A stretch of DNA of 64,000 nucleotides from Acidobacteriota bacterium. Its GTDB lineage: Bacteria > Acidobacteriota > Thermoanaerobaculia > UBA5066 > Gp7-AA6. The position numbers and the translations under genes were made by a program. Shown in pieces: positions 49,991-53,420 of this stretch. The DNA is taken from contig DAHUXD010000063.1 in NCBI GenBank assembly GCA_027307335.1, forward strand, positions 19,301 to 83,300, written 5' to 3'. Below the pieces are notes generated by a model. The model ran no database searches. It was not told the DNA's origin and saw only the letters and a list, made by a program, of their open reading frames with translations. Position 1 is the first letter of the stretch, and each line of letters opens with the position of its first letter.

Positions 49991-51469
49991 TCACGATCGA
50001 CTCCCTTCATGGGGGCCTTGGAGTGCGCGTCGCAATGTTCCCAGAGCGTCCCTATCGGCGGACTGTCTACTCATAGACTCCCGAAGTAACGCGACAGCCA
50101 CGACCGCCTCCTGGACTAGCCCGAGTGTCTCGATTATTGGAAGGGCGGCGGCGATCTCCGAGAGCGCCTCTGCATCACGCTCGCGAGCGAGCAATGTCTC
50201 CGCCAGAATGAGTCGCACTTGCGCCTCTAAGGCCCTGAAGCGAGAAGACCCGTATGTGGCAACCGCAAGGCGATACGACTCGATAGCCGCGTCCAGGTGA
50301 CCGAGGTCTCTGAGGATCTCGCCTTTCACAGCGTTGAAATGGCCAATGGCCGTTGGGAGCCCTGAGTCGCCCACCAGTGCCCAAGCCCGCGACAGTATTT
50401 CGAAGCCTCTCTGGGGTTCCTCCTCTTTGGCACAGATGTCAGCCGAATAGATTAGGGCTAGGCCCTTGAGCCATCCCTCCACTTGCGAACTCTCGTCGGT
50501 CGCTACCGCCTGAAGTTGCACCAAGGCTTCCGCATGGCGTCCCATTTCCTTGAGTACGACCCCGTCGAGGTACGTACACAAGACGGCGCTCCTGTGCATT
50601 CCGAATCCTTTGAACTTATCTAGGAGTTCTGGCAGGCCACTCCGAGCATCAGCGAACTCATGCCGTTCGTAGGCGATAGACCGACGAATAAACTCAATTC
50701 GGGCGCTGGAAATATCAGGTCGAGTAACGAGATCGCATCGCGCAGACGCGACTTCGAGCCATTTCGCAGAATCAGCGAAGTTCCCGTGATGTTTATGGGC
50801 AAAGGCTGCAATGATCTCTAGCTGAAGGAGAAACCAGGCCCTCTCCTCCCTTCCCAGGGATAGCGCTCGAGTTTTCGAAAGGTATTCATGGGTGGCGATA
50901 GTTTGGCGAAGCGAGTCGGCGGGGTCCAGATTGGTTGTCAGGTAGAGCCCAGCGCATAAAGCAAGCAGCACGCGAGGATCAGTGAAGAACCTGTCGCGCA
51001 ACTGGTCCGTACGCTCCTGTTCCTCTAAGGCGAGAAAGTCGGACACCGATGGAAGCTGCCGCGCGAGCTCAACAGTCTTGTTCTCCCAGATCCAAGCCGA
51101 CCTCGGCTCGCCAAGGCGTCTGTATTGCCTTGACGTCAGATATGCCAACTGGGAAAGGAGATCGAGCTTCTCGTCGAATTCATTGGCCGGCCAATCCAAC
51201 TCAGAAAGAAGCTCGTACAGCCGTTGAACGCGTCGCGGGTCCCCTCGAAAGTCATCTGTAGCCACCTTCACGAGTGCGTAGACGCGATCGGGTTCGAGCG
51301 CGGATCCGACCGCGGCGTCCGACCAAGTGTCGCCTTTTCGCCAGACCTTTGTCGCCCAAGCTAGAGCCTCGTTGGCGCGAGGAAGCGACAACCCGTGAGT
51401 GTCTGCGCTGAGCCATATTTTCAGCGCGTTTGCGCTGATCAACTGGGATTCGCTGATGCCGGCGCTCAT
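49991..51469 (-). CDS. TPR-type repeat protein, partner of an upstream sigma-2-like protein
   Basis: 492-residue, largely helical protein. The segments LDGVVLKEMGRHAEALVQLQ, then IGHFNAVKGEILRDLGHLDA and VRLILAETLLARERDAEAL form TPR-like pairs in the C-terminal two thirds. There is no signal peptide or catalytic motif. The end (AALPIIETLGLVQEAVVAVA, then LLRESMSRQ) matches the end of the TPR protein at 51914-53029, so the two are paralogues. Its ATG overlaps the stop of the upstream small gene (ATGA), so both are made together. GC is clearly lower than in neighbouring operons. Confidence 0.75.
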   Translation of the reverse strand: MSAGISESQLISANALKIWLSADTHGLSLPRANEALAWATKVWRKGDTWSDAAVGSALEPDRVYALVKVATDDFRGDPRRVQRLYELLSELDWPANEFDEKLDLLSQLAYLTSRQYRRLGEPRSAWIWENKTVELARQLPSVSDFLALEEQERTDQLRDRFFTDPRVLLALCAGLYLTTNLDPADSLRQTIATHEYLSKTRALSLGREERAWFLLQLEIIAAFAHKHHGNFADSAKWLEVASARCDLVTRPDISSARIEFIRRSIAYERHEFADARSGLPELLDKFKGFGMHRSAVLCTYLDGVVLKEMGRHAEALVQLQAVATDESSQVEGWLKGLALIYSADICAKEEEPQRGFEILSRAWALVGDSGLPTAIGHFNAVKGEILRDLGHLDAAIESYRLAVATYGSSRFRALEAQVRLILAETLLARERDAEALSEIAAALPIIETLGLVQEAVVAVALLRESMSRQSADRDALGTLRRALQGPHEGSRS

Positions 51470-51816
51470 TCTGGGTTCTCCTGGGCGCCTTTCGCTTGGC
51501 CATCAAGTTTCGACCATTTGGCGGTTAGAGCAATACGCCTCAGAGTCTTGCGCGAGTGGTTAAGGCAGAGATGATCCACGACTTGGATCAACCAGGCTTT
51601 AGGGTTCCGGCAGGCGTCGATTCGCTCGATCGCGAGAACAAAGGCATCTTGAACTATGTCTCGAGCATCTTCAACATTCAGTCGGTATCGCCAGGTTGCC
51701 CTCCGAATTAGGGGCAAGTAGACCTGCTGATAGAACGCGCCAAGAGCCACGTCCGTCATGGGCGTTCGCGACGCCCTCGATGTATCGCCTTCCTGCCTCT
51801 GTGGCCGCGACGCCAT
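51466..51816 (-). CDS. Short sigma-70 region-2-only protein
   Basis: 116-residue protein. Residues about 28-92 match sigma-70 region 2: YRLNVEDARDIVQDAFVLAI (regions 2.1-2.2, RNA polymerase contact) and NPKAWLIQVVDHLCLNHSRK (2.3-2.4, -10 recognition). It ends within 25 residues, so region 4, which reads the -35, is absent. It could be an alternative promoter-binding factor that needs its coupled TPR partner, or a regulator that evolved from an ECF sigma factor. ATG 51816 has a strong GGAGGTG site 6 bases upstream. Confidence 0.75.
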   Translation of the reverse strand: MASRPQRQEGDTSRASRTPMTDVALGAFYQQVYLPLIRRATWRYRLNVEDARDIVQDAFVLAIERIDACRNPKAWLIQVVDHLCLNHSRKTLRRIALTAKWSKLDGQAKGAQENPE

Positions 51817-51913
51817 CGGACACCTCCGGTCAATCCGGGGGGAGCCCCTGCCTAAATCCTAACTAAATATTGTCGCGAGGAAGGTGGAGCCGAGGGGGTA
51901 GGGGAGGAAAAAA

Positions 51914-53029
51914 CTAGTTTCTCGCCTGGAGGTACTCCCGGAGCTCTACGAGGGCCTTGGGATCCGTCTTGCGCTGGCGGACCGACTCGCGCAGAAGGGC
52001 CACGGCAGCGAACCCCTCCGGGACCATCTTCTGCTCATCGATGGTTGGCAGCGCCGCGAGCAGTTCCCATTCCGCCTCGCGAGGCTTGCTAGCCTGAATC
52101 AGCAACTCGGCAAGCAAGACCCGGAAGTAAGCTGCTCTCGTCGCCATCCCAAGGGTGACCAAGTCCTCGATGGCGGCTCTGTACGCAGGAATAGCATCAC
52201 TCAAACGACCGAGTTCCCTGAGGGTCTCACCAAACATCAGCTTTAGGTCGGCCAGCGCCGAAGTTCTATTCGCAGCTTCAAGGAGTGGCTGCGCCTGCTG
52301 GTACCTCGAAAGAGCGTCTGCGTACAAGCCCTGCGCCGAGAGTAGGTTTCCGAGGTTTACGAGGGCAGTGCCACGCAGCGCAGAATTGACGGACTGATCG
52401 TCAGACAGGCTCAGAAGACGGGTCGCGGCCTCATCGAGTCTTCCGAGCTGCTTCAGGCTGAGACCCTCGAGAAGGAGGCATTTGGCTCGTTCAAGCCGCA
52501 TTCCCAATCGTTCGAAAGTGAGGGCGGCCGAAGGAAGCAATTCAACGACATCTTCATATCGGTTGGCGTCATATCTGAGCGCGAGTCGGTTATAGGCAAC
52601 GCGTGCGAGATGCGCAGCCGGTGCAACCGTATGGCGAAAATTGGCGTCGGATCTATCAAACCAGCTTTCCGCCTCGTCTCGTCGACCAGTCATTCTGTGG
52701 GCAGCGCCGGCCAGAAGCGCGAATTCGCCTAGGAAGTACTCGCGTTCATCGAAGAAGAACTCACGCGACTGGCGGACAAGAAGCCAACGGTAGATCCCAA
52801 CCGCCTCGTCAAGGACGACAGCGGGTGTGCTGTTGATGAGCTCTCCCAACGTCGAGCACAGAGACGCCAGGACGTCAGCATCTGAGAGAGCATCGAGGAT
52901 GAGCTGCTCGGAGCGCGTCGAGGGAGAGGACTGCAGATAAGCCATCGCTCGCGCGGGCGCCTCATCGCGTGACCGCGTCGCAGGCGCGACGCTTGCGCGG
53001 AACTTGAGGATGCGAGCGCTGCTAGGCAT
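51914..53029 (-). CDS. Second TPR-type repeat protein
   Basis: 371-residue helical protein, paralogue of the one at 49991-51469. TPR-like pairs are visible from about residue 120, for example ALVNLGNLLSAQGLYADALS, then LMFGETLRELGRLSDAIPAY and RVLLAELLIQASKPREAEWE. The shared C-terminal signature is LLAALPTIDEQKMVPEGFAA, then VALLRESVRQR. No enzyme motif or leader is seen. The ATG at 53029 overlaps the upstream small gene by 8 bases. It would be a partner or effector of that gene product. Confidence 0.75.
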   Translation of the reverse strand: MPSSARILKFRASVAPATRSRDEAPARAMAYLQSSPSTRSEQLILDALSDADVLASLCSTLGELINSTPAVVLDEAVGIYRWLLVRQSREFFFDEREYFLGEFALLAGAAHRMTGRRDEAESWFDRSDANFRHTVAPAAHLARVAYNRLALRYDANRYEDVVELLPSAALTFERLGMRLERAKCLLLEGLSLKQLGRLDEAATRLLSLSDDQSVNSALRGTALVNLGNLLSAQGLYADALSRYQQAQPLLEAANRTSALADLKLMFGETLRELGRLSDAIPAYRAAIEDLVTLGMATRAAYFRVLLAELLIQASKPREAEWELLAALPTIDEQKMVPEGFAAVALLRESVRQRKTDPKALVELREYLQARN

Positions 53030-53420
53030 CTGAGCGGCGAATATCGATCAACTGAAGACTGCGCGAGAAATCATGAGCGACATCGGCTGGCTCGCGATCG
53101 AGAAGGGATTGGAGCTGCGCATCGGATTCGCGAACACCAGTACCAACAACGTATTTCTGGTACTCGCGCGCGAACTGACAACACGCGACAAGAAGATACG
53201 GACGGTTCTCGCGAATCGACGCTCCGGGACGGTAGCAAAAGCGGCGGAACCAGACGAAGAGATCCTTCTCGAGCTCCGTCGCTTCCTGTTCACTCAGCTG
53301 ATAGTGAGTAACGAGAGCGATATGGATGAGACCCAACGTCTCTTGGAAGACCGTCTCGACTTCTCTCTCGAAGACATCCTCAGTCGACGGTGTGTTGTCG
53401 AGGTCGTCTGAGATCTCCAT
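53022..53420 (-). CDS. Diverged sigma-2-like small protein
   Basis: 132-residue protein starting MEISDDLDNTPSTED. The pattern ALVTHYQLSEQEATELEKDL, then FVWFRRF and ENRPYLLVACCQFAREYQKY aligns by eye with the region-2 helices of the neighbouring 116-residue protein, but conserved DNA-contact residues are changed. It may be a sigma-derived protein that no longer binds promoters. ATG 53420 is preferred over an in-frame ATG at 53483 because of a GGGAG site about 8 bases upstream. A TATAGT box lies at 53458-53463. Confidence 0.6.
   Translation of the reverse strand: MEISDDLDNTPSTEDVFEREVETVFQETLGLIHIALVTHYQLSEQEATELEKDLFVWFRRFCYRPGASIRENRPYLLVACCQFAREYQKYVVGTGVRESDAQLQSLLDREPADVAHDFSRSLQLIDIRRSDA

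Follow-up and report, generated by a model that had tools for sequence, protein, structure and literature searches.

A sigma region 2 protein without region 4, encoded with a TPR protein: a putative two-part gene switch in an acidobacterial cassette

Does a sigma factor always need region 4, or can a protein confined to region 2 work with a partner of another kind? The question is raised by a gene cassette in a 64,000-nucleotide stretch of DNA, referred to here as the window, from an Acidobacteriota bacterium of the class Thermoanaerobaculia (GenBank assembly GCA_027307335.1, contig DAHUXD010000063.1, positions 19,301 to 83,300 of the forward strand). On the minus strand, window positions 49991..53420 hold four tandem genes, in which two small open reading frames each overlap the start of a gene for a tetratricopeptide repeat (TPR) protein:

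orfA, 53022..53420, minus strand: 132 residues, the first of the four genes, encoding a probable divergent sigma region 2 domain
TPR-A, 51914..53029, minus strand: 371 residues, overlapping orfA by 8 bases; Pfam TPR_12, E = 6.6e-9; 363 homologs
orfB, 51466..51816, minus strand: 116 residues, sigma-70 region 2 only, without region 4; Pfam PF04542, E = 5.6e-10
TPR-B, 49991..51469, minus strand: 492 residues, overlapping orfB by 4 bases (ATGA); homologous to TPR-A

The reading that we favour, and to which we give about an even chance, is that orfB grips core RNA polymerase and the −10 element and that its TPR partner gates it, the two forming a sigma-like switch without region 4. Each of the two pairs is likely, judging from sequence, to be a reduced gene switch in two parts, and we have not found this form described; no region-2-only protein paired with a TPR protein appeared in the titles and abstract openings of the literature searched. 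An earlier note on this DNA had given protein lengths and overlaps of 8 and 4 bases, which match the reading frames exactly, and had called the cassette a duplicated module. For the TPR half this stands, as TPR-A is a homolog of TPR-B (29% identity, E = 1.7e-34) and the C-terminal signature that the note had pointed out, AALPxI...ALLRES, is common to the aligned TPR family. It did not carry over to the small proteins, for which direct profile comparison of orfA with orfB was not significant (probability 0.5–1.5%).

Is orfB truly a region 2 protein, and is its lack of region 4 genuine? Its sole Pfam match is Sigma70_r2, at 39.3 bits where 24 would suffice, and no match to region 4 was found in orfB with Pfam or anywhere on the same contig. 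Compared with the extracytoplasmic function (ECF, group IV) sigma factors, orfB thus has region 2 and lacks region 4 in the same protein. A protein search returned 155 homologs; the 120 listed are all 96–133 residues long, and because the search admitted candidates of up to about 203 residues, the missing region 4 is, at the level of these sequences, a trait of the family and no annotation error. All 37 aligned family members match Sigma70_r2 alone in Pfam. That the small proteins are truncated or decayed remains of full ECF genes might be supposed from the fact that orfB ends soon after region 2.4, but the homolog lengths, conservation that runs beyond region 2.4 to W101 and the lack of a region 4 match on the contig speak against it, and we regard it as extremely improbable. 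Truncation of a full ECF factor was one of the outcomes that the earlier note had named as refuting its proposal, and a truncated ECF origin of orfB was rejected on the lengths and the contig search.

The conserved residues of orfB are those of a sigma factor. D50, A51, D53, Q56, F59, W75, N86 and R89 are invariant in 37/37 aligned members, and this pattern (DA.D..Q..F, W, N, R) is common to 20 other ECF region 2 domains of the same genome, with which the orfB profile aligns at 98.3% probability. Other positions are fixed specifically in the orfB family, namely F28/Y29, P35/L36, R38/R39, W42 and R93/R94/L97, with W101 nearly so. The genome has 22 places above the region 2 cut-off. A PF08281 region 4 lies no more than a few hundred bases away from 20 of them; it is lacking beside orfB and beside a 607-residue frame, which we take to be RpoD. 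A 23rd place (L074), below the cut-off, appears by eye to be a small sigma factor with its own C-terminal helix-turn-helix (HTH).

How widespread is this form? With the orfB profile, 6 of 148 genomes of the class pass E = 1e-10, namely the source genome (6e-54) and five more, all between 1.5e-11 and 8.7e-11, and 2 of 396 genomes of the phylum pass 1e-12, the source genome and one from another class. The latter encodes two longer sigma-like proteins (matching at 5e-15 and 2e-13) with weak HTH matches after region 2 (L123:1282-1749 and L124:1231-1899). None of the 20 loci in named genomes that match the orfB alignment is region-2-only, since in 20/20 the reading stays open for 124 residues or more past the match start; the alignment matched no viral contig.

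Does the pairing recur? The junction of orfB with TPR-B is readable at the DNA level only in this genome. Among the listed hits, TPR-A and orfB homologs lie on same-sized source contigs in 24 cases and TPR-A and orfA homologs in 18 (for each, a shift control gave a mean of 1.2 and a maximum of 6). For orfB with orfA there are nine such cases (control mean 2.4, maximum 8), three of which, on short contigs (560, 1039 and 1154), may be chance. This count used 118 of the 120 TPR entries, the values of the other two being absent from the orfA and orfB lists. At the DNA level the orfA–TPR pair was found at five loci, which belong to three genera within a single family: the window, contig C26 of the same genome, C218 of genome G001, and C5 and C90 of genome G002. 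The small frame ends at or beside the TPR start at 5/5 loci where this can be read, with overlaps of 8 bases in the window and 4 in C26 and C90, and a gap of 1 base in C218; in C5 the TPR start is not fixed and the TPR frame crosses the orfA stop. A sixth TPR match (G002 C58) stands at the very start of its contig, so that the sequence before it is unreadable.

The junction can also be traced in the protein database. Twelve of the 120 listed TPR proteins are N-terminally extended (each longer than 378 residues), and when tested against 69 orfA ends, 9/12 could encode the orfA C-terminus in the other frame, in the exact register of the 8-base overlap. All eight that had been picked by pattern fit, P0071 with only 1 of the 69 ends; for each of the eight, 0/200 shuffles fitted (run on 60 of the 69 ends), and for seven of them 0/30 slides fitted, nor did the other frame. 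The remaining four comprise P0096, which fits, P0107, which matches 1 of 69 ends only up to the start codon, and P0051 and P0083, whose extensions do not fit the register. Recurrence of the pairing outside the window, whose absence the earlier note had named as a refutation, is thereby seen both at the readable loci and in the extended proteins. The copies in C26 (L051:3384-7871) and C5 (L048:3598-12860) share flanking genes, by eye NADH-dehydrogenase-like and ATP-grasp-like, and because of these common flanks the locus appears to be an old one that has been vertically kept.

What, then, is orfA? It has no Pfam match at E ≤ 1, a Pfam region 2 match was seen in none of 51 members, and Foldseek gave no match below E = 1. 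Compared with the TPR-linked sigma factors described below, its profile scored 23.8, above the maximum of 21.01 from 100 column shuffles, at a probability of only 7.5%. On this comparison and the predicted fold, orfA is probably a divergent sigma region 2 domain. The statement that the small proteins resemble only region 2 can accordingly be upheld by sequence for orfB; for orfA the support comes from a predicted fold and a profile score of modest size. orfA does not retain the ECF glutamine of region 2.2. Conservation is nevertheless strong: in sets matched by the length of the source contig, orfA relatives stand at 85–93% to the window protein and TPR-A relatives at 52–83%, orfA being the closer in 18/18, and in the four sets with all three proteins orfB stands at 60–76%. 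Such constraint would fit contact with a partner that itself evolves slowly, for instance RNA polymerase, of which the orfA family is, on this reading, likely a hidden ligand. Where the 120 listed relatives are named they are only 'hypothetical protein'; through this pair, a strongly conserved family of small proteins becomes approachable. The source names found among relatives are Thermoanaerobaculia and Acidobacteria, with a single Nitrospiraceae. In a draw of 396 genomes of the phylum, orfA was found only in its own genome, G001 and G002 presumably not having been drawn.

The same data could be read differently. Both small proteins might be sigma mimics or blockers that either take up the place of sigma on core polymerase or sequester an anti-sigma factor, their release being controlled by the TPR protein. 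Neither has region 4, and orfA is highly constrained though part of its region 2.2 signature is lost, as would suit such a role; PhyR, whose sigma-like domain has degenerate contacts with promoter and core, is a described example (PMC8103513). However, orfB keeps W75, N86 and R89, of regions 2.3–2.4, in 37/37 members, and a pure blocker would have no need of them. We consider this alternative possible, at well below an even chance.

Which role would the TPR proteins play if orfB is a working sigma subunit? TPR-B is alignable with TPR-A from about residue 140 and has an extra N-terminal helical stretch; its model is an all-helical TPR solenoid, confident over residues 141–480 and poor over the N-terminal 130. 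No HTH or other DNA-binding family and no region 4 was found in either protein, and neither has a match to zf-HC2 or a cysteine pair at the aligned place. A TPR profile that includes distant relatives finds their wider family in 64 of the 148 genomes of the class (E ≤ 1e-15), as many as 12 times in a single genome. Neighbourhoods were read at 27 of 30 returned loci, one per genome, taken from genomes other than the source genome, G001 and G002; one locus (L154) starts at a contig end. At 13/27 loci, a same-strand upstream open reading frame has a match to the region 2 profile (E of 2.1e-5 or better), as against 36 of the 49 upstream frames examined that do not, and in 10/13 the sigma-like stop lies within 90 bases of the TPR match start. 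The 13 loci are L130, L133, L135, L139-L145, L148, L152 and L156. By chance such neighbours should be rare, as only 23 region 2 matches occur in the 4.37 Mb of the source genome.

These neighbours are mostly complete sigma factors. Among ten of the 13 that were searched with Pfam, eight have regions 2 and 4 at E ≤ 0.05, five of them with both regions above the curated cut-offs, and the other two gave one weak region 4 only and nothing, respectively. They are short and without a TPR tail. Near the N-terminus of the TPR frames, HxxxCxxC, the mark of zinc-type anti-sigma factors, was found by script in 15/27 and by eye in L142 (the script count is not valid for L142 and L149). A zf-HC2 domain reached the Pfam cut-off in one of six TPR relatives (L141), and three further distant relatives (two and then one) gave no zf-HC2 match. 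The wider family therefore looks, from its neighbours, like a set of regulators encoded with small sigma factors, and the units in the window look like forms that lost both region 4 and the zinc motif. The likeness to ECF factors with zf-HC2-type anti-sigma factors lies in a sigma gene directly followed by a putative regulator, and in TPR relatives that follow small sigmas, often have HxxxCxxC and in one case zf-HC2; the difference is that the sigma protein of the window lacks region 4, and that TPR-A and TPR-B lack HxxxCxxC and are mostly TPR solenoid.

The earlier note had left two roles for the TPR protein within a two-part regulator, to supply what region 4 would do or to control the sigma-like protein. 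Control is favoured, because the distant relatives follow small sigmas, most of them with regions 2 and 4, and often have HxxxCxxC. Substitution for region 4 would have the TPR protein tether polymerase to upstream DNA or an activator, making the pair a true split sigma. The fixed overlap and the co-occurrence of the pair are compatible with this, and SigO–RsoA is a described case of a split sigma factor, a region-2-only protein acting together with the product of another gene, which has region 4 (PMC8103513; PMC10141391 reverses the assignment of regions between SigO and RsoA). This is the nearest two-part analogue, like orfB in its region-2-only subunit and unlike it in that the partner of orfB is a TPR solenoid and the cassette has no region 4 partner. 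The lack of any DNA-binding family weighs against substitution, though the poorly modelled N-terminal 130 residues of TPR-B leave some room for it. Furthermore, since related TPR proteins sit behind sigmas that keep region 4, the TPR protein did not, on this evidence, arise to replace it. We judge substitution unlikely.

Could the pair instead be a split ECF42-type factor? In ECF42, regions 2 and 4 share one chain with a C-terminal TPR extension, which is essential for activity (PMC8999054), so that region 2 and TPR repeats are joined in one regulatory unit as here; a split with loss of region 4 would give the arrangement in the window. Several of the 20 best named-genome matches to orfB, Mesorhizobium first, are long-tailed proteins that look ECF42-like to us. 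In the window, by contrast, the parts are separate genes without region 4, and no relation to TPR-A or TPR-B could be detected in the TPR tails of the three ECF42-like proteins that this genome encodes (no profile match at E ≤ 10). Nor are those three the closest to orfB of the 20 ECF factors of the genome (15, 14 and 13 of 47 identities, the best having 18), and the sigmas that precede TPR-A/B relatives are short and have no TPR tail. A split ECF42 is thus a quite unlikely origin.

Returning to the favoured reading, in which orfB is a sigma subunit under its TPR partner, orfB would bind the beta-prime clamp helices through region 2, and TPR-B would dock on it, probably at the positions fixed in the orfB family (F28/Y29, P35/L36, R38/R39, W42) and at the R93-R94-L97-W101 tail, which sits just after region 2.4. 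TPR-B is expected to sense a signal and is predicted to hold or release orfB in the manner of an anti-sigma factor. Such a pair may descend from a complete sigma factor with an anti-sigma-like TPR protein, having lost both region 4 and the zinc-type motif. On this view orfA and TPR-A would form another such unit, one that occurs more widely and whose region 2 has drifted yet is very strongly constrained. If this is true, promoter opening by region 2 is possible without region 4, an answer to the question of the minimal sigma factor unlike that given by SigO–RsoA, and the wider family comprises many sigma/TPR switches, in which the steps from complete to region-4-less survive as natural intermediates.

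What signal might the TPR protein sense? At four sister loci, a same-strand open reading frame of 45–48 residues with conserved ends lies 72–89 bases upstream of orfA:

L051:4799-4936, same strand as orfA, small open reading frame
L047:2135-2275, same strand as orfA, small open reading frame
L048:8378-8515, same strand as orfA, small open reading frame
L049:7944-8084, same strand as orfA, small open reading frame

The pattern is absent from the window cassette, and by eye the frame has no secretion signal. In the 148 class genomes, strong matches occur only at the sister loci, as follows from how the model was built, and the next four are at E = 1.8e-3 or worse. Together with a Rap-like fold, the frame might point to a peptide-responsive switch. 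The TPR superhelix is shared with the Rap/NprR/AimR (RNPP) peptide receptors, from which TPR-A and TPR-B differ in having no HTH or phosphatase output and the window cassette in having no peptide frame; the Rap-like match is not specific, because TPR scaffolds of eukaryotes reach equal or higher scores (24.0). A switch made up of three parts (a small peptide, a TPR receptor like Rap and a sigma protein reduced to a form that works without region 4), derived from a system of sigma factors and TPR anti-sigmas found across the class, is in our estimate doubtful. Under this reading the window would hold the unit in duplicate, the second one, orfB, retaining the full region 2 chemistry.

The cassette is flanked by genes that, from their translations, we name D-alanyl-D-alanine carboxypeptidase-like and YqiA-like esterase. 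Third-position G+C is 0.61–0.67 in the three cassette genes scored and 0.85–0.94 in the three nearest neighbours, which makes the cassette a compositional island; because its value is so far below that of the flanking genes, the cassette may have been acquired from elsewhere. Antisense to orfA, on the plus strand, runs a 112-residue open frame (window 53073-53411), probably a by-product of codon usage.

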